A stretch of DNA of 36,129 nt from Desulfovibrionaceae bacterium (GTDB taxonomy: Bacteria > Desulfobacterota > Desulfovibrionia > Desulfovibrionales > Desulfovibrionaceae). Below, piece after piece: positions 2-13,324 of this stretch. Below the pieces are notes generated by a model. The model saw nothing but the letters and a program-made list of their open reading frames with translations. It was not told where the DNA came from and searched no databases. Positions within the stretch are counted from its first letter, which is position 1. Every line of letters begins with the position of its first letter. The DNA lies in assembly GCA_015233395.1 (NCBI GenBank), contig JADFXV010000028.1:1-36129 (forward strand). The letters run 5' to 3'. A program made the translations under genes and the position numbers.

Positions 2-2659
2 GGGGAGCCCGGGCCGCCGGAGTCCGCCCGGCCCGACCGGCCCGACCGGCCCGACCGGACGGCCCCGCGCGAGATTCTCGTCATCCATTCCTATCAGGTC
101 GACTACGTCTGGACCCGCGAAATCATGAAGGGCGTCGAGAGCGAGCTTGCCCGCCTGGCCGAGCCCATTTTTTTGCACATCGAGTTCATGGGTTCGAAGT
201 ATCTCTACGACGAGAACATCGAACGCGGCTTCACCGAGCTCTACCGGGCCAAATACAAGGGCCGCAACATCGCGCTCGTGATCTGTTCGGACGAGAACGC
301 CTTCCATTTCCTGCGCGCCAGGCGCGACGAGCTGTTTCCGGGCGCCCCGGTGGTCTTTTGCGGGGTCAACGAGTTCAAGCCCGGGATGCTTGACGGGCTT
401 TCCGGCTTCACCGGCGTGGTCGAGGACAACGACATGGCCCGCAATCTGGAGCTGGCCCTGCAATTCCAGCCCGGGACCAAGCACGTCGCCGTCATCGGCG
501 ACGAGACCATCACCATGCGCCTGGTCAAGGAACACATGCGCGAGCTCGAACCGCGTTTCGCGGGCGTTCTCGACTTCACCTACCTGCCCGACGACCCCGT
601 GGACCGGCTCGTCGCCGCGGTGAAAAACCTGCCCGAAGACAGCATCGTCTACTATCTGGCCCTGCACAAGGACAACCGGGGCGGGGTGTACAACGCCGAG
701 GAGGTGCTCGGGCGCCTGGCGCAGGCCTCGGCCTCGCCGATCTACGGCAACTGGACCTTTCTTCTGGGCCACGGCCTGATCGGCGGCCTGCTCTGCGACG
801 GTTTCGAGCAGGGCCGGGTGGCCGGGGACATGGCCGTGCGCATCCTGGGCGGCCAGAGCCCGGGATCGATCCCGGTGGTGCTCGACAGCCCCAATCTCTA
901 CCGTTTCGACAACGCGGCGTTGATCCGCTTCCAGATCGACCGCCGGCTCTTGCCGCCCAACTCGGAAGTGGTCAACGTGCCCGATCCCTTCTATCGCCTG
1001 AACAAGCAGGCCTTCTGGACGCTGATTTTCGGCATGGCCGGGCTGGCCGGATTCACCCTGCTTCTGGTGGCGGGCATTCTCAAGCGCCGGCGCATCGAGA
1101 GCGCCCTGGTCCACAGCGAGGAGGAATTGCGTGGGGCCGAGGAGAAATACCGCTCCATCTTTGAAAACTCAGCCCTGGGGATCTTCCGCTCCACGCTCGA
1201 CGGCCGCTATCTGGACGCCAACCCGGCCATGGCCGCCCTGATGGGCTTCGATTCTCCGGAGGCGATGACAAACAGCGTGGGCAACCTGTTCGAGGAGTTG
1301 TACGCCGATCCCGGCCGCGCCCGGGAAATCAAGAAACTCATCCGCGAAAGCCTGGTCCCGTTTCATTTCGAGAACCGCTACCGCCGCCAGGACGGCCGGA
1401 TCATCACCGCCAACGTCTCCATCCGCCCGGTCCGGGACAAAGGCGGCCAGGTCGTCTCGGTCGAGGGCTTCATGGAGGACGCCACCGAAAAGATCGACCT
1501 GGAGCGGGCCCTGGTCCAGTCGCAGAAGATGGAGGCCATGGGCACGCTGGCCGGCGGCATCGCCCACGATTTCAACAACATCCTGACCTCGGTCATCAAT
1601 TCCATCGAACTGGCCCTGCCGGACACGCCGGGCGACGGCCCGGCCAGGCGCGATCTGTCGCGGGCGCTCGCCGCCTCGCGCCGGGGCGGCGATCTGGTCA
1701 AGCAGATCCTCTCCTTCTCCCGGGCGGACAAGGAGGAATTCTCCCCGGTCGACGTCGCGGCGGTCATCCGCGACACCCTGCACATGCTCGAAGCTTCGCT
1801 GCCGCGCAACATCAAGGCCACGGCCCGTCTCAACGCGCACGGCGCGCGCATCTCGGGCAACGCCACCCGCATCCAGCAGGTGCTCATGAATCTGTGCGCC
1901 AACGCCTTCCAGGCCATGCGCGAAACCGGCGGCCGGCTCGACATCGAGCTCTCCGAAGAGGAGCTGCCGGGCCAGCCGCAGGGCGCGGCCGCGACGCCCC
2001 CGGGTTATTTGAAGATCGCCGTGACCGACACCGGGCCTGGCATCCCGCCGGGCGTGGCGGACAAGATCTTCGATCCGTTTTTCACCACCAAGCCCAAGGG
2101 CGAGGGCACCGGACTCGGTTTGTCCGTGGCCCACGGCATCATCAAGGCCCACGGCGGCATGATCGGCTTAGACAGCGCCCCGGGCGAGGGCGCGCGGTTC
2201 GTCATCTACCTGCCGAAGGCGGGCGAGGCCGGGCGCCAAAGCGTCCGGGAGGAAATCGCCGGAGAATCCGGCAGCGGAACCATCCTCTACGTCGAGGACG
2301 ACGCCGACCAGATCTTCACCATCCCGAGGGTGATCGAGTCGCTGGGCTACACGGTCATCGCCCAGCGCGACCCGCGCGAAGCCCTGGACATCTTTTTCAA
2401 AAGGCCGGATCATTTCGCGGCCGTGGTCACGGATTTCGACATGCCGGGGATCAACGGCGTGGAGCTGGCCAGGGCGATCCTGGCCGCGCGGCCGCACATG
2501 CCGGTCGTTTTGGCCACCGGCCGGCGCAGCGAGGCCGAGGCGGCCATGGGCCAGGCCAAGCTGACCGTCCTGGCCAAGCCGTACGACCGCGGCGAACTGG
2601 CCCGGGCGCTGCTTTTGGCCCGTCTGGCCGCCGGGGAAGAGACTGGGGGAGAGGTATGA
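2..2659 (+). CDS. Hybrid sensor histidine kinase with periplasmic ABC-type substrate-binding sensor domain (5' partial)
   Basis: The reading frame is open from the window edge, so the true start and signal peptide lie upstream; an ATG at 125 is internal, because the codons before it already encode the family motif ILVIHSY. Order seen: a short (PDR)3 linker at about 32-58, a periplasmic substrate-binding-like domain to about 1000, one membrane helix at about 1012-1080, a PAS domain (about 1143-1500), a HisKA domain with the phospho-acceptor His in GGIAHDFNN (codon 1565-1567), a HATPase with the DTGPGIP and GTGLGL boxes, and a C-terminal receiver (about 2280-2640) with Asp in TDFDMPG. The stop overlaps the next gene's start (ATGA), so the two are co-translated. 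By position it matches the kinase next to LurR in D. vulgaris; a lactate-related signal is inference. Family is certain, ligand unknown. Confidence 0.9.
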   Translation, partial: GEPGPPESARPDRPDRPDRTAPREILVIHSYQVDYVWTREIMKGVESELARLAEPIFLHIEFMGSKYLYDENIERGFTELYRAKYKGRNIALVICSDENAFHFLRARRDELFPGAPVVFCGVNEFKPGMLDGLSGFTGVVEDNDMARNLELALQFQPGTKHVAVIGDETITMRLVKEHMRELEPRFAGVLDFTYLPDDPVDRLVAAVKNLPEDSIVYYLALHKDNRGGVYNAEEVLGRLAQASASPIYGNWTFLLGHGLIGGLLCDGFEQGRVAGDMAVRILGGQSPGSIPVVLDSPNLYRFDNAALIRFQIDRRLLPPNSEVVNVPDPFYRLNKQAFWTLIFGMAGLAGFTLLLVAGILKRRRIESALVHSEEELRGAEEKYRSIFENSALGIFRSTLDGRYLDANPAMAALMGFDSPEAMTNSVGNLFEELYADPGRAREIKKLIRESLVPFHFENRYRRQDGRIITANVSIRPVRDKGGQVVSVEGFMEDATEKIDLERALVQSQKMEAMGTLAGGIAHDFNNILTSVINSIELALPDTPGDGPARRDLSRALAASRRGGDLVKQILSFSRADKEEFSPVDVAAVIRDTLHMLEASLPRNIKATARLNAHGARISGNATRIQQVLMNLCANAFQAMRETGGRLDIELSEEELPGQPQGAAATPPGYLKIAVTDTGPGIPPGVADKIFDPFFTTKPKGEGTGLGLSVAHGIIKAHGGMIGLDSAPGEGARFVIYLPKAGEAGRQSVREEIAGESGSGTILYVEDDADQIFTIPRVIESLGYTVIAQRDPREALDIFFKRPDHFAAVVTDFDMPGINGVELARAILAARPHMPVVLATGRRSEAEAAMGQAKLTVLAKPYDRGELARALLLARLAAGEETGGEV
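31..57 (+). repeat. 9-bp tandem repeat, three units
   Basis: Three perfect copies of GCCCGACCG. They are in frame with the kinase and encode PDR-PDR-PDR just before the periplasmic domain. This is one of four loci in the window with 9-bp units that begin GGC in one register. Confidence 0.85.
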
Positions 2660-4146
2660 GCAAACTCTTGGTCATCGACGACGACCTGGGCGTGTACGGC
2701 ACGATCAACAGCCTGGCCGCCCGCATGTCGGTCGAGACGGTCTGGGCGCCGACCCTGGCCGAAGGCTTGGCCAGAGTCGCCGCCGGCGGCGTGGACCTGG
2801 TGTTTTTGGACGTGCGCCTGCCCGACGGCAACGGCCTGACCGCCCTGCCGCGCATCAAGGGGGCGAGCGGCAATCCCGAGGTCGTCATCCTCACCGGCGT
2901 GGGCGACCCCGAGGGCGCGGAACTGGCCATGCAAAACGGGGTCTGGGATTATCTGGTCAAACCGGCCTCGGTCAGGGCCATCACCTTCTCCATCAACCGC
3001 GCCCTGCAATACCGCCGGGAAAAAACCGCCCAGCCCCTGCCCGTGGCCCTTGCCCGCGACGCCATCGTCGGGGCCAGCCCCCAGGTGGCGCGCTGTCTCG
3101 ATCTGGTGGCTCAGGCCGCCCGGTCAAAGGCCGGGGTGCTGCTCACCGGCGACACCGGCACGGGCAAGGAAGTCTTCGCCCGCACCATCCACCGCAATTC
3201 GCCGCGCGCGGCCGGCCCCTTCGTCACCGTGGATTGCGCCGCCCTGCCCGAAGCCCTAGTGGAATCGATCCTGTTCGGCCACGCCCGGGGCGCCTTCACC
3301 GGCGCGGAATCGAGCCGGGTCGGCCTGGTCAAGCAGGCCGACGGCGGCACGCTCTTTCTGGACGAGGTCGGCGAACTGCCGATGACGGTCCAGAAAAGTT
3401 TTCTGCGCGTCCTGCAGGAACGCTCGTTCCGCCCGGTCGGCGCGGCCAAGGAGGAACAAAGCGATTTCCGCCTGATCGCCGCCACCAACCGCGACCTTGA
3501 AGACTTCGCCAGCCAGGGCAAATTCCGCAGCGACCTGCTCTTTCGCGTCAAGACCGCCGCAATCCACCTGCCGCCGCTGCGCGAACGCGGCGGAGACTTG
3601 AAACTGCTGGCCATGGACCGCATCACCCGCTTGTGCGAAGAGTACGGCCTGCCGACGAAGGGTTTTGATCCGGCCTTTTTCGACGTGCTTTCCACCCACG
3701 ACTGGCCGGGCAACGTCCGCGAACTCTTCAACGTCCTGGAGCGCGCCTTCGTGGCCGCCGGCCGCGAACCGACTCTGTACCCCATGCACCTGCCCGCCGA
3801 ACTGCGCGCCCGGGCGGCCACGAGGGGACTGCGCCTCGCCAAACCGGCAGAATCGGCAGAACAGGCAGAACCGGGCATTGCGGGCGATGCGGCCGGGTTG
3901 AGCGGCGCGGCCCCCCTGTCCGGCATCCCGGACGCGGCCGAAGCCGGCCAACTCAGCAGTTCCATCGAAGCCATGCTCGCCGGCGCCGCCCCGCCTTTTA
4001 AGGACTTCAAGCAGGCCACCGAAGCCGCCTACCTGCGCGCCCTGACCGCCGCCGGCCGCGGCGGCGCCGAGCGCATGATCGAGATCTCCGGCCTGTCGCG
4101 CTCCCATTTCTACGCCCTGCTCAAAAAACACGGGTTGAGCGTGTGA
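2656..4146 (+). CDS. Sigma-54-dependent response regulator, LurR-like (lactate utilisation regulator)
   Basis: 496 aa from the ATG that overlaps the kinase stop; the open frame extends far upstream but only as a shadow of the kinase. Domains: receiver (1-120) with phospho-acceptor Asp52 in FLDVRLPDG; AAA+ domain with Walker A GDTGTGKE (165-172) and the sigma-54 contact loop GAFTGA (212-217); C-terminal Fis-type helix-turn-helix ending SRSHFYALLKKHG. This is the NtrC/DctD architecture of an enhancer-binding protein that opens sigma-54 promoters. A kinase plus such a regulator upstream of the lactate permease and dehydrogenase matches D. vulgaris DVU3022-DVU3028, where the regulator is LurR. 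The likely target here is the promoter at 7921-7936. The linker between AAA+ and HTH carries a 9-bp tandem repeat. The family call is firm; the orthology is a context-based inference. Confidence 0.92.
   Translation: MSKLLVIDDDLGVYGTINSLAARMSVETVWAPTLAEGLARVAAGGVDLVFLDVRLPDGNGLTALPRIKGASGNPEVVILTGVGDPEGAELAMQNGVWDYLVKPASVRAITFSINRALQYRREKTAQPLPVALARDAIVGASPQVARCLDLVAQAARSKAGVLLTGDTGTGKEVFARTIHRNSPRAAGPFVTVDCAALPEALVESILFGHARGAFTGAESSRVGLVKQADGGTLFLDEVGELPMTVQKSFLRVLQERSFRPVGAAKEEQSDFRLIAATNRDLEDFASQGKFRSDLLFRVKTAAIHLPPLRERGGDLKLLAMDRITRLCEEYGLPTKGFDPAFFDVLSTHDWPGNVRELFNVLERAFVAAGREPTLYPMHLPAELRARAATRGLRLAKPAESAEQAEPGIAGDAAGLSGAAPLSGIPDAAEAGQLSSSIEAMLAGAAPPFKDFKQATEAAYLRALTAAGRGGAERMIEISGLSRSHFYALLKKHGLSV
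3846..3872 (+). repeat. 9-bp tandem repeat (GGCAGAAYM) in the linker of the sigma-54 regulator
   Basis: Three consecutive units, GGCAGAATC, GGCAGAACA and GGCAGAACC, lie in frame. They encode three 3-residue units (about AES-AEQ-AEP) in the flexible linker between the AAA+ and DNA-binding domains. The units closely resemble the noncoding ones at 26386-26403. Confidence 0.8.
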
Positions 4147-4216: not shown

Positions 4217-4537
4217 ATGTGGAAAGTCGTTACGCTCAACGAAGTCGTTGACGCCGAGCTCGAAGCGCTGCCAAGCGATCTGCGCGCTCGCCTTCGACGT
4301 ATCGGTGAGTTGATAAAAAATAACGGCTTGGAACGCGTACACGAACCTCACGTCAAACATGTCCAGGGACCTATCTGGGAGATTCGTTTGCTTGGGAAGG
4401 ATGGTATCGCCCGAGCGCTTTACGTCACGGCGAGCGGGAAGCGGGTGGTGATCGTCCGTGCTTTCGTGAAGAAAACCCAGAAAACGTCCCGCGAAGAAAT
4501 CGCATTGGCCTTGAAAAGGGCGAAGGAAGTTCTATGA
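4217..4537 (+). CDS. higB: HigB-type toxin, phage Gp49-like family (RelE superfamily)
   Basis: 106 aa. The sequence fits the phage-derived Gp49-like HigB family, with HVQGPIWEIRLLGKDGIARALY in the middle (cited here by its key part WEIRL) and the family's C-terminal signature FVKKTQKTSREEIALALKRAK. Family members are ribosome-dependent mRNA interferases. The ATG lies only seven bases after the -10 box, with no ribosome-binding site. The stop overlaps the antitoxin start (ATGA). Base composition is visibly lower in GC than the flanking kinase and regulator genes, consistent with acquisition by transfer. Toxin-first order is typical of HigBA. Cellular targets cannot be read from the sequence. 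Confidence 0.88.
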   Translation: MWKVVTLNEVVDAELEALPSDLRARLRRIGELIKNNGLERVHEPHVKHVQGPIWEIRLLGKDGIARALYVTASGKRVVIVRAFVKKTQKTSREEIALALKRAKEVL

Positions 4538-4827
4538 AAGGCACATCTCTTGACGATCTGCATGAACGTTGGCTGAAAGACCCCGGCTACAAGCAGGCGT
4601 ATGACGATCTGGAAGAAGAATTCAGCATCGCGGCGGCCTTGATCGAGGCCCGCTCCAGGGCCGGCCTCTCTCAAGAGGAAGTTGCCCGCAGAATGCAGAC
4701 CAAGCAAACGGTCGTCGCCCGTCTCGAAAGCGGACGCGCCATGCCGTCCACGCGCACTCTGCAACGCTTCGCAATCGCCACGGGCACGAAGCTCAAAATC
4801 AGCTTTGACCCAAAACACGCCGCTTGA
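4534..4827 (+). CDS. higA: HigA-type antitoxin, XRE-family helix-turn-helix
   Basis: 97 aa. It overlaps the toxin stop by four bases and has its own ribosome-binding site (AAGGAAG) within the toxin's 3' end. An XRE/Cro helix-turn-helix occupies about residues 40-85 (GLSQEEVARRMQTKQTVVARLESG). HigA proteins neutralise HigB and repress their own operon; the palindrome over the promoter at 4188-4211 is the obvious operator. The N-terminal part (HERWLKDPGYKQAYDDLEEEF) is the usual toxin-contact region of this family. Confidence 0.88.
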   Translation: MKGTSLDDLHERWLKDPGYKQAYDDLEEEFSIAAALIEARSRAGLSQEEVARRMQTKQTVVARLESGRAMPSTRTLQRFAIATGTKLKISFDPKHAA

Positions 4828-4869: not shown

Positions 4870-4899
4870 TTGACCGAACGGCTATCATGTCTTTATGAA
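4870..4899 (+). promoter_or_regulatory. Possible promoter of the second histidine kinase
   Basis: TTGACC (4870-4875), an 18-bp spacer and TATGAA (4894-4899). The -10 box would overlap the earliest possible ATG of the kinase (4895), which favours a start further downstream. Weak match; no other evidence. Confidence 0.3.
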
Positions 4900-4954
4900 A
4901 ATGACTTCCGGGGTTCATGACCGTGTTCGGATGGAAAGCGAGTGTCGCGTCGTC

Positions 4955-7666
4955 ATGGCGGATGAGAAAAAAAGCCGCGAAGAGCTTGTTTGCGAGTTGG
5001 AGCGCCTGCGCCGGGAAAGGGCCGAGCGGGAAAAGCTCGACTCCCTGACCGCCGGGGCGTTGCGCCTTATCAAGTCGCAGATGCCGACGCACGAGCTCTT
5101 GCGGGAGATCGTGACCCTCATCGCACGGGGGATAGGGTTCGAAGCGGTGGGGCTTCGGCTGCGGGAGGGCGAGGATTTCCCCTACTTCCAGACCAAGGGC
5201 TTCACCGAGGAATTCGTCAGGATAGAGAACAGCCTCTGCCCCAAAGGATCCCACGGACAGCCAGCCCTTGACAAGGATGGAAACCCTGTACTCGAATGCG
5301 CCTGCGGAATGGTCATCCAGGACAGGGTCGACCGCAACGAACCCTTCGTCACCGAGTACGGCAGCATCTGGACCAACAGCAACACCGACCTGGTGACGCA
5401 AAGACCCCAGCTTCTCGATCACATCCGGGGCAACTGCATCGGTTCCGGCTACGAATCCTCCGCCCTCATCCCGCTCAGATTCGGTGCGGCGACCTTCGGC
5501 CTGCTCCAGTTCGAGGACAAGCGCAGGGGGATGTTCACGCCGGAAACCATGAACGGCCTGGAGCTGATCGCCCTCCATCTCGCCCTGGCCCTGTCGCAAC
5601 GCCAGGCGGTCGAGGAACTGCGCCTGGCCGGCGCGCAGCTTGAGCGGCGCGTCTTGGAGCGAACGCGGGAGTTGCATGAGAGCGAAGAACGCTACCGCGA
5701 CCTTTTCCAATACAGCCATGCGATCAAGCTTCTCATTGACCCCGAAACCGGCGCGATCGTAGACGCCAATCCGGCCGCCTGCGCCTATTACGGCTACAGC
5801 CTGGGCGAGTTCCTCCAGCTGACCATCGACCGGATCAACACCTTGCCCCGCGATGAAGCCATGGCCCGAATGGCCGAGGCCGGATCGGCGCGTCTCAATC
5901 GCTTCGAGTTCAAACATCGGCTGGCCACGGGTGAAATCAGGGACGTGGAGGTAGACAGCGGAGCAGTCCGCCTCAAGGGCAAGAGGCTGCTCTACTCCAT
6001 CGTGCAAGACATCACCGAGCGCAAGAAAGTCGAACTGGCCTTGAAGGAGAGCAGGGAGCGGGAGCGCGAAAGGGCGAACGAGCTTGAAACGGCCAAACGG
6101 GAGCTGGAGCGGAACCTGGACGATATGCGGTTCATCGTCGAGGCCACGGACCTGGGAATCTGGTCCAACGAGATGCCGCTGAACAAGATGAACTGGAACC
6201 GCCAGGTCAAGGAGCATTTCTGGCTTGCTCCCGACTGCGAGCCGGTCCTGGACGATTTCTTCAACATCCTGCACCCCGACGACCGTGAGCCGACCCGCCT
6301 GGCCATCGAGCGGGCGACCACCGAGCGCGTCCCGCAAAATACCATCTACCGGACCGTGGCCCCTGACGGCCGCATCCGGTGGGTGCATGCCCAGGGCCGG
6401 GCCATGTACGGCGAGGATGGCCAGCCGGTGCGCTTCTCCGGCATCACCCAGGACGTCACCGGGATGAAGCTGGCGGAGCAGGCGCTGAGCCGGGCCAAGA
6501 CCGGCGCCGAGGCCGCCAACCAGGCCAAGAGCGATTTCCTGGCCATGATGAGCCATGAAATCAGAACGCCCATGAACGGGATTTTGGGCTTCTCTCAGCT
6601 GCTGCTTGGGAAAGCCGCCGATGACGAGTCCCAAAATTTCCTTGGGCTCATCCTCGATTGCGGCGAAAGGCTTTTGGACATCATCAACGATATCCTCGAC
6701 CTGTCCAAGATCGAATCCGGGAAAACCGAGTTGGAATCGTGTCCCTTTTCCCTTCGCGAGGCGCTTCAATCCACCGTCAATCTCCTCAAGGTGAACGCCG
6801 AAAGCAAGAACATCGGCCTTTTCCTCGGCGTCGACTCAAAAATTCCGGACATTCTCCTGGGCGATCCCGGAAGGCTCAGGCAAGTGCTCACGAACCTGAT
6901 CGGCAACGCCGTCAAATTCACCGAGAAGGGCAAAGTCCTGGTTTCCGTCTCCCTGGCCGAGGAACCCACCGCCTCTCGCGTCCGGGTGGGCTTCAAGATC
7001 CAGGACAGCGGCATCGGCATCCCAAAGGACAGGCTCGTAAAGATTTTCGAGCCCTTCTCCCAGGCAGGCGCCTCGACCCACGTCAAATACGGCGGGACCG
7101 GGCTCGGCCTGGCCATTTCCAAGAATCTGGCGGAATTGATGGGCGGCGCGATCCAGGCCGAGAGCGTTGAAGGGGAAGGCTCGACTTTTATCTTCACGGC
7201 CAACTTCGGCCTTGCCGCCAAGCCGGACCAAGCAAAACCCGAGGCCCAACCCATAACCGGATCCGCGCCCCGCGAACTGAACATCCTGCTGGCCGAAGAC
7301 GACGAGATCAGCCGGCTGCTCGCGGTCAAGCTTCTCCAAAAACAGGGCCACCGGGTCGAGACGGCGCACAACGGCCGCCAGGCGATCGAGAAGCTCAAGG
7401 CCGGGAACTTCAACCTGGTGCTCATGGACGTGTTCATGCCGGACATGGACGGCATCGAGGCGGTCCGGGCCATCCGTCGCGGCGAGGCGGGCCAGGACAA
7501 GACCGGCGTCAGAATCATTGCGCTCACGGCCTACGCTCTCAAGGGCGACCGGGAGCGGTGCCTCGCCGCCGGGATGGACGATTACCTGTCCAAGCCGGTC
7601 AAGGCCGAAGAACTATACGAGATGCTGCGGGATTGTGAAGAGCGGAAACAAGCGGACTTTTCCTAG
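4955..7666 (+). CDS. Soluble hybrid histidine kinase (GAF-PAS-PAS-HisKA-HATPase-receiver)
   Basis: About 903 aa from the ATG at 4955 (MADEKKSREELV), chosen because an N-terminal coiled coil normally begins such kinases and a possible promoter overlaps the earlier ATG at 4895; 4931 is a further candidate and none has a clear ribosome-binding site. Order: coiled coil, GAF-like domain (about 40-225), coiled coil, two PAS domains (about 235-375 and 390-510), HisKA with His534 in MSHEIRTPMNG, HATPase with DSGIGIP and GGTGLGLAIS, and a C-terminal receiver with the Asp in LMDVFMPDMDG. No membrane helix is seen, so the signal is probably cytoplasmic. The GAF-like region contains several Cys (LCPKG, ECACG) that might bind a cofactor, which is inference. 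No separate response regulator follows, so the output is unknown. It reads towards the lactate operon. Confidence 0.88.
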   Translation: MADEKKSREELVCELERLRRERAEREKLDSLTAGALRLIKSQMPTHELLREIVTLIARGIGFEAVGLRLREGEDFPYFQTKGFTEEFVRIENSLCPKGSHGQPALDKDGNPVLECACGMVIQDRVDRNEPFVTEYGSIWTNSNTDLVTQRPQLLDHIRGNCIGSGYESSALIPLRFGAATFGLLQFEDKRRGMFTPETMNGLELIALHLALALSQRQAVEELRLAGAQLERRVLERTRELHESEERYRDLFQYSHAIKLLIDPETGAIVDANPAACAYYGYSLGEFLQLTIDRINTLPRDEAMARMAEAGSARLNRFEFKHRLATGEIRDVEVDSGAVRLKGKRLLYSIVQDITERKKVELALKESRERERERANELETAKRELERNLDDMRFIVEATDLGIWSNEMPLNKMNWNRQVKEHFWLAPDCEPVLDDFFNILHPDDREPTRLAIERATTERVPQNTIYRTVAPDGRIRWVHAQGRAMYGEDGQPVRFSGITQDVTGMKLAEQALSRAKTGAEAANQAKSDFLAMMSHEIRTPMNGILGFSQLLLGKAADDESQNFLGLILDCGERLLDIINDILDLSKIESGKTELESCPFSLREALQSTVNLLKVNAESKNIGLFLGVDSKIPDILLGDPGRLRQVLTNLIGNAVKFTEKGKVLVSVSLAEEPTASRVRVGFKIQDSGIGIPKDRLVKIFEPFSQAGASTHVKYGGTGLGLAISKNLAELMGGAIQAESVEGEGSTFIFTANFGLAAKPDQAKPEAQPITGSAPRELNILLAEDDEISRLLAVKLLQKQGHRVETAHNGRQAIEKLKAGNFNLVLMDVFMPDMDGIEAVRAIRRGEAGQDKTGVRIIALTAYALKGDRERCLAAGMDDYLSKPVKAEELYEMLRDCEERKQADFS

Positions 7667-7788: not shown

Positions 7789-7792
7789 CCCC

Positions 7793-7875
7793 GCCGGAAA
7801 TCCGGAATGCCCGACAAACCCCTGTCCCCGCGTCCGGATTTCCGGACAAGAACGCCCCTGTCCGGGTTCCCGGAC
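7793..7875. promoter_or_regulatory. Three related palindromes, candidate activator-binding sites upstream of the lactate operon
   Basis: Site 1 (7793-7807) contains, on the minus strand, TCCGGATTTCCGG. Site 2 (7832-7847) is the perfect palindrome GTCCGGATTTCCGGAC. Site 3 (7860-7875) is GTCCGGGTTCCCGGAC. They centre about 120, 80 and 55 bp upstream of the -24 element at 7922, which is the usual distance for enhancer sites of NtrC-type activators. The adjacent LurR-like regulator is the natural candidate; binding is inferred, not shown. Site 3 lies within a longer stem (7852-7865 with 7870-7883) that could also act in RNA. Confidence 0.55.
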
Positions 7876-7907
7876 AGGGGCGTCTTCAATCAACCATCTG
7901 AAATCTC

Positions 7908-7920
7908 AACATATCATGTT
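7908..7920. promoter_or_regulatory. Short palindrome AACAT-ATC-ATGTT abutting the promoter
   Basis: Perfect 5-bp arms with a 3-bp spacer, ending one base before the sigma-54-like promoter. It could be a repressor or second-regulator site, or chance in this locally AT-rich patch. Confidence 0.35.
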
Positions 7921-7936
7921 CGGAACGAAAGTTGTA
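7921..7936 (+). promoter_or_regulatory. Sigma-54-like -24/-12 promoter of the lactate operon
   Basis: The 16-mer CGGAACGAAAGTTGTA aligns with the sigma-54 consensus TGGCACG-N4-TTGCA. GG, ACG and TTG are kept; the usually invariant GC at -12 is GT. It sits about 108 bp before the permease ATG and downstream of the palindromes at 7793-7875, next to a gene for a sigma-54 activator. The -12 deviation is the main doubt. Confidence 0.5.
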
Positions 7937-8043
7937 TTCCCGCGCACTGAAGGCCCGCTGGCCCGAGACGCGAGGGTCGCGCCGGGCGCTTCCTTCATCG
8001 CCGCCGCCCGGCGCAACCGGCCAAGCCAAGGAGGTTTTGACGC

Positions 8044-9678
8044 ATGACCTGGTTACAGTCGTACGACCCCTTCGGGAACGTCTTTTATTCGGCCCTGGCC
8101 GCGGCCTTGCCGCTGGTCATCTTGTTCTACATGCTGGCGGTCCGCCGGTCCAAGGGCCACGTGGCCGCCGCGCTCGCCACCGGCGCGGCCGTTTTGCTGG
8201 CCATTTTGGCCTTCAAGATGCCCGCCGGGGTCGCCGTCGATTCCGTGGTCTACGGCGCGGCCTTCGGCCTGTTCCCGATCGTCTGGATCGTCATCACCGC
8301 CATCTGGGTCTACAACATGAGCGTGGAGTCCGGCGAATTCGAGATCATCAAGAATTCGCTGTCCTGCGTCACCGACGACCGCCGCTTGCAGGCGATCTTC
8401 ATCGCCTTCGCCTTCGGCTCGTTCATCGAGGGCACGGCCGGATTCGGCACGCCGGTGGCCATCACCGCCTCCATGCTGGTCGGCCTGGGCTTTAACCCGT
8501 TGTACGCCGCCGGCATCTGCCTGATCGCCAACACCGCCCCGGTGGCCTTCGGCGCCATCGGCATCCCGGTGGTGGTGGCCGCCCAGGTCTCGGGCACGGA
8601 TTTGATGCACATCTCCCAGATCATCGGCCGCCAGCTGCCTTTCCTGTCCATCATCGTGCCCTTGTGGCTGTCCGTGACCATGTGCGGATTCAAGCGCTCC
8701 ATGGAAGTGCTCCCGGGCATCCTGGTGGCCGGCGTGGCCTTCGCCGCAACCCAGTTCCTGGTCTCGAACTACATCGGACCCTACCTGCCGGACATCATTT
8801 CCGCCGTGGTGACCATCATCGCCCTGGGCGTCCTGCTGCGTTTCTGGCAGCCCAAGCAGGTCTGGCGCTTCCCGGACGAACCCGTCCACGACGGCGTGCG
8901 GGCCACCTGCCGCTACACCCCGGGCGAAGTGCTGCGCTCCTGGCTGCCCTACATCATCCTGGCGATCATGGTCTATTTGTGGGGCCTGGATTCGGTGCAG
9001 GGGTTCCTCAAGGGCATCTCCACCATCAAGATCGAATGGCCCGGCCTGCACAACCTGGTGATCAAGACCGCCCCGATCGCGGCCAAGGACACCCCCTACG
9101 CGGCCGTGTACACGTTCAGCTTCTTCTCCGCGGCCGGCACCGCCATCCTGCTGGCCGGCCTTTTGTCCGTGCCGTTTATTCCCAAGTACGGCTTCGACCG
9201 GGCCATCGGCTGCTTTGCGCGCACCCTGCACCAGCTGCGCTGGCCCATCCTGACCATCTCCATGATCCTGGGCCTGGCCTTCATCATGAACTACTCCGGC
9301 ATGAGCTCGACCATGGGCCTGGCCTTCACCGCCACCGGCGCGGCCTTCCCGTTCTTCGCCCCGATCCTGGGCTGGCTCGGCGTGTTCCTGACCGGCTCGG
9401 ACACCTCCTCCAACGCGCTCTTCGGCTCGCTGCAGAAGACCACCGCCCAGCAGATCAACGTCAGCCCCGAACTGTGCGTGGCCGCCAACTCCTCGGGCGG
9501 CGTCACCGGCAAGATGATCTCGCCCCAGTCCATCTCCGTGGCCACGGCGGCCACCAAGATGGTCGGACAGGAAGGCGACCTCTTCCGCTTCACGCTCAAG
9601 CATTCCATCGCCATGCTGCTGGTGATCTGCTTTCTCACCCTGGCCCAGGCCTACGTCCTGAAGTGGATGCTGCCCTAA
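8044..9678 (+). CDS. lctP: L-lactate permease (LctP family)
   Basis: 544 aa, the usual family length, starting at an ATG with a strong ribosome-binding site (AAGGAGG at about 8028). It is an inner-membrane protein with some 12-14 hydrophobic segments and typical LctP stretches such as FIEGTAGFGTPVAI, APVAFGAIGIP and TGSDTSSNALFGSLQ. The family imports lactate (and glycolate) with protons. It heads an operon with an FAD dehydrogenase and an Fe-S subunit, so imported lactate is oxidised by the next two products. In Desulfovibrio lactate is the main electron donor for sulfate reduction. Regulation is probably through the sigma-54-like promoter at 7921. Confidence 0.95.
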   Translation: MTWLQSYDPFGNVFYSALAAALPLVILFYMLAVRRSKGHVAAALATGAAVLLAILAFKMPAGVAVDSVVYGAAFGLFPIVWIVITAIWVYNMSVESGEFEIIKNSLSCVTDDRRLQAIFIAFAFGSFIEGTAGFGTPVAITASMLVGLGFNPLYAAGICLIANTAPVAFGAIGIPVVVAAQVSGTDLMHISQIIGRQLPFLSIIVPLWLSVTMCGFKRSMEVLPGILVAGVAFAATQFLVSNYIGPYLPDIISAVVTIIALGVLLRFWQPKQVWRFPDEPVHDGVRATCRYTPGEVLRSWLPYIILAIMVYLWGLDSVQGFLKGISTIKIEWPGLHNLVIKTAPIAAKDTPYAAVYTFSFFSAAGTAILLAGLLSVPFIPKYGFDRAIGCFARTLHQLRWPILTISMILGLAFIMNYSGMSSTMGLAFTATGAAFPFFAPILGWLGVFLTGSDTSSNALFGSLQKTTAQQINVSPELCVAANSSGGVTGKMISPQSISVATAATKMVGQEGDLFRFTLKHSIAMLLVICFLTLAQAYVLKWMLP

Positions 9679-9760: not shown

Positions 9761-11149
9761 ATGCCGCTTGCCAAGTCCCTGATCGACGAATTCGCCCAGA
9801 TCGCCGGGAAAGACTCGGTCATGACCGACGAGGCCGACCTGGCCAGCTATTCCTACGACGCGGCCGTGCTCGAGCCGGTCATGCCCGCGCTCGTGGTCCG
9901 TCCGAAAACCTTGGAGTCTCTCGGGCGCGTCACGCGGCTGTGCAACGAAAACGGCCTGCCCCTGACCGTGCGCGGCGCCGGAACCAATCTCTCCGGCGGC
10001 GTCATTCCGGCCAGGGAGCTCGGCGTGGTGGTGTTGACCAACGCGCTCACCCGGATCGTCTCCATCAATACCGAGGATCTCTACGCCGTGGTCGAGCCGG
10101 GCGTGGTCACGGCCAAATTCGCCGCAGCGGCGGCCGAGCGCGGCCTGTTCTATCCGCCCGACCCGGGCAGCCAGGCGGTCTCGACGCTCGGCGGCAACGT
10201 GGCCGAGAACGCCGGGGGGCTGCGCGGCCTGAAGTACGGCGTGACCAAGGACTACGTCATGGGACTGTCGTTTTTCGACGTGGACGGCCAGCTCGTCAAA
10301 ACCGGCGGGCGCACCGTCAAATGCGTCACCGGCTACAACCTGGCCGGGCTTCTGGTCGGCAGCGAGGGCACGCTCGGGGTCTTCGGCGAAATCATCTTAA
10401 AGCTCGTGCCGCCCCCGGCCGCCGCCAAGGCCATGATGGCCGTGTTTGACACCATGGACGCCGCCTCCCAGGCCGTGGCCGCGATCATCGCCGCGAAAAT
10501 CGTCCCGGCCACGCTCGAAATCATGGACAACTTCACCATCCGCACGGTCGAGGACTTCAGCCACGCCGGGCTGCCCACCGGCGCCCAGGCCCTGCTTTTG
10601 ATCGAGGTCGACGGGCACGCGGCCATGGTCGCGGAAGACGCGGACAAAGTGGAGACCATCTGCAAGCGCCAGGGCGCGTCGAGCATCAAGGTGGCCAAGG
10701 ACGCGGCCGAGCGCAACAAGGTCTGGGAAGCCAGGCGCGCCGCCCTGTCCGCCCTGGCCCGGGTCGCCCCGACCACGGTCCTGGAAGACGCCACCGTGCC
10801 GCGCAGCCAGATCCCGGCCATGATGCGCGCCCTGCTGGACATCGCCGCGAAATACTCGCTCACCATCGGCACCTTCGGCCACGCCGGGGACGGCAACCTG
10901 CACCCGACCATCCTGACCGACAAGCGCGACCACGCCGCCTGGAAAAAAGTCGAAGCGGCCATCGACGAAATCTTCTACGCCGCCCTGAAACTCGGCGGCA
11001 CGCTCTCCGGCGAGCACGGCATCGGCCTGGCCAAGTCGCGCTGGCTGGAAAAGGAAACCAGCCGGGGCACCATCTTGTATTCCAAGAAGATCAAAGCCGC
11101 GCTCGATCCCAAGAGCATTCTCAACCCCGGCAAAATCATAGGAGCGTGA
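9761..11149 (+). CDS. FAD-linked oxidase, GlcD/D-lactate dehydrogenase family
   Basis: 462 aa. It has an N-terminal FAD-binding (PCMH-type) domain with VRGAGTNLSGG and GLRGLKYGVTKDYV, and a C-terminal FAD-oxidase domain with the flavin/substrate segments GTFGHAGDGNLHPT and SGEHGIGLAKSRW. These features place it with glycolate oxidase subunit GlcD and D-lactate dehydrogenases. Its position directly after the lactate permease and before a GlcF-like Fe-S protein indicates a two-subunit D-lactate dehydrogenase that passes electrons to the membrane pool, as for DVU3027/3028 of D. vulgaris. The stop overlaps a GTG of the next gene. Glycolate cannot be excluded as a substrate. Confidence 0.92.
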   Translation: MPLAKSLIDEFAQIAGKDSVMTDEADLASYSYDAAVLEPVMPALVVRPKTLESLGRVTRLCNENGLPLTVRGAGTNLSGGVIPARELGVVVLTNALTRIVSINTEDLYAVVEPGVVTAKFAAAAAERGLFYPPDPGSQAVSTLGGNVAENAGGLRGLKYGVTKDYVMGLSFFDVDGQLVKTGGRTVKCVTGYNLAGLLVGSEGTLGVFGEIILKLVPPPAAAKAMMAVFDTMDAASQAVAAIIAAKIVPATLEIMDNFTIRTVEDFSHAGLPTGAQALLLIEVDGHAAMVAEDADKVETICKRQGASSIKVAKDAAERNKVWEARRAALSALARVAPTTVLEDATVPRSQIPAMMRALLDIAAKYSLTIGTFGHAGDGNLHPTILTDKRDHAAWKKVEAAIDEIFYAALKLGGTLSGEHGIGLAKSRWLEKETSRGTILYSKKIKAALDPKSILNPGKIIGA

Positions 11150-11154
11150 GCGCC

Positions 11155-12453
11155 ATGGCCGATCTTCGCCGCCTTGCGCGGATGCTGGGAGAAATAGACG
11201 ACCAACTGGTCAGTTGCATGCGCTGCGGCATGTGCCAGGCCGTCTGCCCGGTCTTTGGCGACACCGGCCGCGAGGCCGACGTGGCCCGGGGCAAGATCGC
11301 CCTGCTCTCCCAGCTCGGCAGCGAGATGATCCGCGATCCGCATCAGGTCAAGGAGCGCCTGGAGCGCTGCCTGCTGTGCGGCTCCTGCGCGGCCGCCTGC
11401 CCAAGCGGCGTGCCGGTCGTGGACATTTTCCTGCGGGCCAGAGCGATCCTGACCGCCTACATCGGCCTGTCGCCGGCCAAAAAGCTCATCTTCAGGGGGC
11501 TGCTCGCCCGTCCCGGCCTGTTCGACCGGCTGCTCTCGCTGGCCCCGGCCATGCAGGGCCTGTTCACCCGCGAGGTCGACGCCGCAGCCGGCACGTCCTG
11601 CGCCCGTTTTCAATCAAGCCTCATCGGCGACAGGCATTTCAAGACCCTGGCCGCAAAGCCGCTGCACGAGCTCGCCGCCCCGAGGGACGAACCGGCGGGA
11701 GCCAGCGGCAAACGCGTGGCGCTGTTCACCGGCTGCGTCGTGGACAAGGTCTTCCCCCAGGTCGGCCAGGCGTCGCTCGCCGCCCTGTCCCGCGCCGGGG
11801 CCGGGGTCTATCTCCCGGGCGGGCAGGCCTGCTGCGGCATCCCGGCCCTGTCCTCGGGCGATACCCGGACCTTCCGCAAACTGGTGCTGGCCAACCTGGA
11901 GCTCTACGCGGACAAGCCCTTCGACGCGCTCGTCACGGCCTGCGCCACCTGCACCGCGACCATCAAGCACGTCTGGCCGGACATGGCCGCCGATCTCTTC
12001 AACGAGGGCGAGCGGGCGGCCATCGCCGCGCTGGCCGCCAAAACCACCGACATCTGCGCCTACCTGACCGACGTCCTGGGAGTGACGCCCGTAGCGACGC
12101 AAGACTCCGCCGCAACCGTCACCTACCACGACCCCTGCCACCTGAAAAAATCGCTGGGCATCGCCAACCAGCCCAGAGACCTGATCCGGGCCAACAAAAA
12201 CCTGCGCCTGGTGGAAATGTCCGAGGCCGACGTCTGCTGCGGCTGCGGCGGCTCGTTCAATCTGGCGCACTACGAGATTTCCAAACACATCGGCCAGCGC
12301 AAGATCGCCAATATCCGCGCGACCGGCGCGCAAATCGCGGCCACGGCCTGCCCGGCCTGCATGCTCCAGATCGCCGACATGGCCTCGCAAAGCGGCGGCG
12401 GCATCCAGGTCAAGCACGCGGTCGAGCTGTATGCGCAAGGGCTTACGGAATAA
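11155..12453 (+). CDS. Fe-S subunit of lactate/glycolate oxidase (GlcF-like, CCG domains)
   Basis: 432 aa from the ATG at 11155, which lies 10 nt after GGAG; a GTG at 11146 overlapping the previous stop is possible but would sit only one base after that GGAG. It has two 4Fe-4S motifs, CMRCGMCQAVCP and CLLCGSCAAACP, then two CCG domains (GGQACCGIPAL near residue 220 and DPCHLKKS...CCGCGG near 330-370), with a final ACPAC. This is the GlcF/LutA-type electron-transfer subunit that takes electrons from the FAD partner encoded just upstream. It is the last gene of the operon; a terminator hairpin follows 12 bases after the stop. Confidence 0.93.
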   Translation: MADLRRLARMLGEIDDQLVSCMRCGMCQAVCPVFGDTGREADVARGKIALLSQLGSEMIRDPHQVKERLERCLLCGSCAAACPSGVPVVDIFLRARAILTAYIGLSPAKKLIFRGLLARPGLFDRLLSLAPAMQGLFTREVDAAAGTSCARFQSSLIGDRHFKTLAAKPLHELAAPRDEPAGASGKRVALFTGCVVDKVFPQVGQASLAALSRAGAGVYLPGGQACCGIPALSSGDTRTFRKLVLANLELYADKPFDALVTACATCTATIKHVWPDMAADLFNEGERAAIAALAAKTTDICAYLTDVLGVTPVATQDSAATVTYHDPCHLKKSLGIANQPRDLIRANKNLRLVEMSEADVCCGCGGSFNLAHYEISKHIGQRKIANIRATGAQIAATACPACMLQIADMASQSGGGIQVKHAVELYAQGLTE

Positions 12454-12650: not shown

Positions 12651-12687
12651 TTGACGGGGCCGCAGCCGTGTTATAACATTTGTTGTA
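12651..12687 (+). promoter_or_regulatory. Promoter and imperfect operator of the abrB-doc module
   Basis: TTGACG (12651-12656), 15 bp, TATAAC (12672-12677). The imperfect palindrome TATAACA-TT-TGTTGTA (12672-12687, one mismatch) covers the -10 region and would suit autorepression by the antitoxin. The spacer is short. The preceding gap (12495-12650) holds no gene I can see, only CTTGCC/GGCAAG (12594-12612) and a GGGCTGT/ACAGCCC pair (12522-12634). Confidence 0.45.
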
Positions 12688-12701
12688 CCGTGGAGGTTGG
12701 C

Positions 12702-12932
12702 ATGCACGCTGTCAAGATTCGCCGTATCGGCAATTCGCTCGGGGTGGTCCTGCCCAAAGAGATTCTGGCCAGGCTCGGGGCCGGCGAGGGGGCCAGCGTC
12801 TACCTGACCGATTCCCCGGACGGCGGCCTGCGCCTGACGCCGCTCAACGAAGATTTCGCCCGGCAGATGGAAGCGGCCGAGACCATCATGCGCCGCGACC
12901 GCGACGCCTTGCGGGAATTGGCCAAGCGGTGA
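12702..12932 (+). CDS. AbrB/MazE/SpoVT-type antitoxin
   Basis: 76 aa from the ATG at 12702, chosen because TGGAGG sits five bases upstream and the product then begins at the family's conserved start, MHAVKIRRIGNSLGVVLPKE, the swapped-hairpin AbrB DNA-binding fold. The C-terminal 30 residues (LNEDFARQMEAAETIMRRDRD) form the helical part that usually wraps the toxin. The stop overlaps the toxin start (GTGA), so translation is coupled. Such AbrB-type antitoxins are commonly paired with Doc toxins and repress their own promoter. Confidence 0.87.
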   Translation: MHAVKIRRIGNSLGVVLPKEILARLGAGEGASVYLTDSPDGGLRLTPLNEDFARQMEAAETIMRRDRDALRELAKR

Positions 12933-13324
12933 GCTTCGCCTGGCTCGGCCTGGAGGTGATCCTGGCCATTCACGAGGCCCAGATCGCCGAGCACGGCGGT
13001 GCGCTAGGCATCCGCGACGCAGGTCTCGTCGAAAGCGCCCTGGCCGCCCCGCGCGCGCTCGCCGCCTACGGAAACCACGACCTCTGCTACCTGGCCGCCG
13101 CCTACGGACACGCCCTGATTCACAACCACGGCTTCATCGACGGCAACAAACGCACCGCCTACGTGGCCACGCTTTTATTTCTGGAACTGGGCGGCGCTCG
13201 TCTCGCGGCGCCGCTCGCCGAACGGGTTCTCGTGTTCGAACGCCTCGGCGCGGGAGATATGACCCGGGAAGATTTCGCCGCCTGGCTGCGGCGGTGGAAA
13301 GAACCGTCCCGCCTCAGTGGATGA
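12929..13324 (+). CDS. doc: Doc (death-on-curing) toxin, Fic superfamily
   Basis: 131 aa from the GTG that overlaps the antitoxin stop; a longer frame exists upstream but runs through the antitoxin gene. The Doc/Fic catalytic motif is intact: HGFIDGNKRTA (about residues 71-81), matching HxFx(D/N)GNKR. Doc proteins phosphorylate elongation factor Tu and halt translation. The opening residues (LGLEVILAIHEAQIAEHGG) are also typical of the family. The gene ends convergently with fliL, with 11 bp of overlap, which suggests insertion right up to the neighbour. Confidence 0.88.
   Translation: MSFAWLGLEVILAIHEAQIAEHGGALGIRDAGLVESALAAPRALAAYGNHDLCYLAAAYGHALIHNHGFIDGNKRTAYVATLLFLELGGARLAAPLAERVLVFERLGAGDMTREDFAAWLRRWKEPSRLSG

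Follow-up and report, generated by a model that had tools for sequence, protein, structure and literature searches.

The window, that is, the whole 36,129-nucleotide stretch of DNA analysed here, begins with a sensor kinase gene and an activator gene that resemble the LurSR pair of Desulfovibrio vulgaris, and it carries, on the same strand, genes for lactate uptake and oxidation. The features of the region are the following, with positions counted from the first letter of the window.

2–2659, + strand: LurS-like hybrid histidine kinase, identified by Pfam, by sequence and by its place immediately upstream of lurR, which matches D. vulgaris (PMC6456213)
2656–4146, + strand: lurR ortholog, with a receiver, a sigma-54 AAA+ domain and a Fis-type HTH containing SGLSRSHFYALLKK (reciprocal best hit, Pfam)
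4217–4827, + strand: toxin-antitoxin pair with a Gp49/HigB-like toxin and an HTH antitoxin, downstream of lurR and ahead of the lactate operon
4895–7666, + strand: second hybrid histidine kinase, GAF-PAS-PAS-HK-receiver (Pfam)
7792–7807, no strand assigned: palindrome CGCCGGAAATCCGGAA, a near-copy of the core of the 7832 site without the outer GTC/GAC
7832–7847, no strand assigned: candidate LurR operator GTCCGGATTTCCGGAC, promoter-proximal by spacing
7852–7883, + strand: perfect palindrome with 15-bp arms, ACGCCCCTGTCCGGG-TT-CCCGGACAGGGGCGT, enclosing the 7860 site
7860–7875, no strand assigned: candidate second LurR operator GTCCGGGTTCCCGGAC, a strict motif match 28 bp from the first
7888–7900, + strand: IHF-like match AATCAACCATCTG in the spacer that separates the operators from the promoter, a lead only
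7922–7936, + strand: sigma-54-type promoter GGAACG-AAAG-TTGTA (-24/-12)
8044–9678, + strand: lctP, lactate permease
9761–11149, + strand: FAD-linked D-lactate dehydrogenase/GlcD-type subunit
11146–12453, + strand: Fe-S (CCG domain) partner subunit

The 5′ end of the first kinase gene is probably cut by the end of the contig. Its product has an ABC_sub_bind-like sensor region and PAS, HisKA, HATPase and receiver domains (Pfam), and a hybrid kinase with a receiver thus adjoins lurR, as the sensor kinase LurS does. A domain search found no DNA-binding domain in the second hybrid kinase. The only lactate permease found in the genome is lctP, and with the GlcD-type dehydrogenase and the Fe-S subunit it makes up the uptake and oxidation targets typical of a LurR regulon. 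A gene for a Fic/DOC-family protein (window 12680–13324) lies directly 3′ of the dld genes. Between the end of the second kinase gene at 7666 and the start of lctP at 8044 is a gap of 377 bp in which three palindromes and a single sigma-54-like string are found.

In D. vulgaris Hildenborough, the LurSR regulon comprises lurSR (lurR is DVU3023) and the targets DVU3025–3033 (PMC6456213, PMC3333781, PMC4641369). The lactate operon is activated by LurR on lactate, LurR binding three 16-bp sites of the GTCCGCTTTTTCAGAC type upstream of its sigma-54 promoter, and such sites are conserved in the Desulfovibrionales (PMC6456213, PMC3333781); the three D. vulgaris sites read ATCCGCTTTTTCAGAC, GTCCGCTTTTCAAGAC and GTCCACTTTTTCAGAC and the promoter ATTGGCACATTTCTTGTTA, itself with GT at -12 (PMC6456213). 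Because a search of 288 family genomes did not turn up this exact promoter string, the facts of the D. vulgaris locus rest on PMC6456213. Most of the Desulfovibrionales with lurR that were queried have one to four LurR sites (PMC6456213, PMC3333781).

The activator encoded at 2656–4146, 4 kb upstream of the lactate genes and on the same strand, is the LurR ortholog, as an earlier note on this DNA had suggested for the sigma-54 activator found there. A query with LurR from a relative in which LurR sites and a promoter follow directly after lurR ranked the window gene first in this genome with 556 bits, ahead of the next activator with 300, which makes the window gene a reciprocal best hit. Its receiver and sigma-54 AAA+ domains were assigned by Pfam and its HTH was read from the sequence; the recognition-helix segment is common to orthologs with LurR operators downstream, and the protein has matches at E <= 1e-150 in 101 of 247 family genomes. 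LurR and NrfR share operators in D. vulgaris, and NrfSR binds LurR-type sites in vitro (PMC6456213), which raises the question of whether, in the manner of NrfR, a different sigma-54 activator encoded in this genome uses the sites before lctP. At least 11 further such activators are encoded here, at 37–46% identity to a LurR. NrfSR has a very similar operator but differs in regulator identity, and here it is LurR that lies nearby on the same contig and that is by far the best ortholog; control by another activator is therefore very unlikely.

The operator matrix was derived from 40 LurR-linked promoters of relatives (73 distinct sites, window excluded), each with an operator 86–105 bp upstream of a GGCA-type -24 element. 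These promoters gave the consensus GTCCGAAATTTCGGAC and again yielded GTCYG-N6-CRGAC, the 16-bp operator already published from D. vulgaris. No 16-mer of the 36-kb window scores higher than the 7832 site, which reaches 21.2 bits against a training median of 19.8. The 7860 site, with 12.3 bits, falls between the 5th and 25th percentiles of the training set, ranks third in the window and is a probable second LurR operator, judged by its strict motif. Natural GTCCGG...CCGGAC variants occur in relatives (L134, GTCCGGTTTGCCGGAC; L147, GTCCGGAAAACCGGAC; L202, GTCCGGAATCCCGGAC), and operator pairs 27–28 bp apart recur among them. The strict pattern has 20 occurrences in the 3.37-Mb genome (35 for a reversed control pattern), two of which stand 28 bp apart in the 377-bp gap. 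These two strict sites upstream of lctP, the first gene, fall within the published range of one to four. A further strict 16-mer, GTCCGGCATCCCGGAC, at window 3918–3933 inside the lurR coding sequence, is probably a chance occurrence.

The third palindrome differs from these two. Its core, CCGGAAATCCGG, is also that of the 7832 site, and since the whole genome holds only about 10 near-copies of this kind, the resemblance is genuine; what the palindrome lacks are the outer bases that an operator needs. At -0.8 bits it ranks 58th in the window, a score reached by about half of the gap shuffles, and LurR binding there is probably absent or weak. A true third operator at 7792 was rejected on this background score. 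All three palindromes that the earlier note had pointed out are present in the sequence; its claim of three matching sites holds for 7832 and 7860, which fit the LurR operator, and fails for 7792. LurR operators do exist here, but the operator is the 16-mer GTCCGG-N4-CCGGAC and not TCCGGATTTCCGG.

The promoter string that had been noticed after the palindromes, GGAACG-N4-TTGTA, is present, although its GG begins at 7922 rather than 7921. As a sigma-54 promoter, the GG-N10-GT at 7922–7935 is mediocre, with 8 of 11 consensus positions, and alone it is not significant, since 33 equally good matches occur in 72 kb of strand. Its significance comes from its position: counted from the start of the 7832 site, the -24 GG at 7922 is 90 bp downstream, and in relatives the distance from the start of the proximal operator to the -24 GG is either 88–93 bp (14 promoters) or 99–105 bp (26 promoters), two classes that differ by about one helical turn. 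The expectation for an 8/11 match that falls at any of the 12 allowed spacings from 7832 is 0.005, and a sigma-54 promoter before lctP, as previously proposed, is the best reading of this string. No sigma-70 promoter was found in a search of the sense strand of the kinase-lctP gap. Alternatively, the palindromes could be hairpins of a structural or repetitive kind with no part in regulation, and the promoter string a chance match; such strings are frequent, as just noted, and gene ends in the window commonly carry long hairpins. However, 4000 Markov shuffles of the gap never produced two strict operators, and with the promoter at the conserved distance this alternative seems most improbable.

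The GT at -12, thought at first to be unusual, is the majority state, found in 27 of the 40 relatives' promoters as well as in D. vulgaris (PMC6456213). The base at -12 goes with the distance class, with GT in 24 of 26 long-class and GC in 11 of 14 short-class promoters, kinship being uncontrolled in these counts. The real oddity of the promoter is the A after GG, where all 40 relatives, a set selected for GGCA, have C. IHF-like matches occur in the operator-promoter spacer of 9 of the 40 relatives against 3.1 expected from shuffles, many of the genomes being closely related; an IHF site was rejected as a claim, this roughly three-fold excess being too weak.

The 7860 site is set in an unusual structure. 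Its palindromic symmetry extends 8 bp past the operator 16-mer, compared with 7 bp at L234 and at most 2 bp in 97 of 99 relatives' operators, and as RNA the 7852–7883 segment folds at -32.8 kcal/mol. The hairpin is terminator-like with respect to the upstream kinase gene and may also act as its terminator. The palindrome could be nothing but the intrinsic terminator of the gene ending at 7666, its operator match a product of hairpin symmetry, with LurR using 7832 alone or with the degenerate 7792; because any hairpin is palindromic, this reading deserves weight, as do the low matrix score of the site and the L234 locus, where a clear T-tailed terminator immediately 3′ of lurR, AGGCCGTGTCCGG-AAAC-CCGGACACGGCCTTTTC, contains a LurR-type site. 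Against it, the strong stem is followed by CTTCAATC, a poor tail without a T run, and a terminator scan of the region called no intrinsic terminator at 7852–7883; moreover, the 16-mer agrees with the operator at 10 of 10 fixed positions and stands 28 bp from 7832, a distance that recurs between operators. We consider a terminator without operator function a real possibility, though less probable than not. The two roles are in any case mutually compatible, and both may apply. In the strongest form of this idea, operator and upstream-gene terminator would be one dual-use element that binds LurR as DNA and ends transcription as RNA, so that LurR occupancy and read-through would be coupled; the same overlap with a clear T tail occurs at L234, which belongs to another genus, but the proposal is doubtful for the present site. 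LurR-type 16-mers were seen inside T-tailed terminator hairpins at L234 409–424, L216 239–254 and L076 9297–9312.

The LurR orthology, the operator match, the conserved spacing and the promoter string were each established by computation, and from them the region is very probably the LurSR/sigma-54 control region of the lctP-dld lactate operon. Counting against this are the weak promoter consensus, the separation of lurSR from the operon and the absence of a like arrangement directly before lctP in the other permease upstream regions compared. In the proposed mechanism, LurS would sense lactate or a related signal and phosphorylate LurR, whose dimers would bind at 7832 and probably also at 7860. 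Bound LurR would oligomerise and contact RNA polymerase-sigma-54 at 7922–7936 by DNA looping, and transcription would start near 7946 and run, presumably as one unit, through lctP and both D-lactate dehydrogenase genes. The earlier reading, LurR and sigma-54 control of the lactate operon, was right in outline, but it had missed the hairpin around the 7860 site and the genes that separate lurSR from the operon.

The locus is a new example of the published LurR regulon, a kind of control typical of sulfate-reducing bacteria. As in D. vulgaris, a hybrid kinase and a sigma-54 response regulator lie upstream of lactate permease and dld genes, and 16-bp GTCYG-N6-CRGAC operators accompany a sigma-54 promoter with GT at -12. 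In contrast to D. vulgaris, lctP is the leading gene and por belongs to a different operon, a toxin-antitoxin pair and a second hybrid kinase stand between lurSR and the lactate genes, the operators have G+C-rich cores, the two good sites span 44 bp rather than about 155 bp, and one site lies inside a hairpin. Three PAS domains are described for the D. vulgaris LurS, whereas the kinase here has one PAS region and the ABC_sub_bind-like sensor, a region that Pfam did not detect in the L034 kinase. The LurR loci L032, L033, L034 and L234 likewise have the proximal operator 88–102 bp before the -24 element and pairs 27–28 bp apart, and in one of these compared loci, L234, the operator also lies within a terminator hairpin; they differ in a promoter match of 9–11 of 11 positions, against 8 here, and in a first gene that is usually por or dld. 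At L032, which has the closest permease (78%), there are a 28-bp operator pair and a proximal operator, and the promoter follows the latter by 89 bp. The scan upstream of relatives' permeases that the earlier note had recommended found the palindromes mostly absent there, because relatives place the sites after lurR, ahead of por or dld; they were recovered downstream of lurR. Among 82 permease upstream regions, this is the only one with a strong LurR-like site directly before lctP and a promoter at the expected spacing.

Our analysis adds one more lineage to the published lactate regulon and overturns nothing known about this system; it corrects the impression that GT at -12 is exceptional and separates LurR promoters into two spacing classes. 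The -12 state and the spacing classes should help to predict the targets of LurR in other sulfate reducers. One pyruvate:ferredoxin oxidoreductase above the family cut-off is encoded in the genome, on another contig (C95), where it follows genes for an ADP-forming-type acyl-CoA synthetase and a DRTGG/AAA_26 (pta-N-like) protein. No good sigma-54 promoter is evident before these acs/pta-N/por genes; upstream of them (L193, contig C95, 7196–7391) is a LurR-like site cluster, CTCCGAAATTCCGGAC, ATCCGATTTTTCAGAC and ATTTGAATAATCGGAC, in which ATCCGATTTTTCAGAC scores 19.8–20.7 bits and CTCCGAAATTCCGGAC 14.5–14.8 bits within 110 bp. LurR likely controls both the lctP-dld and the acs/pta-N/por operons in this organism, and L034 has a separate por operon with three LurR-like sites and a promoter.
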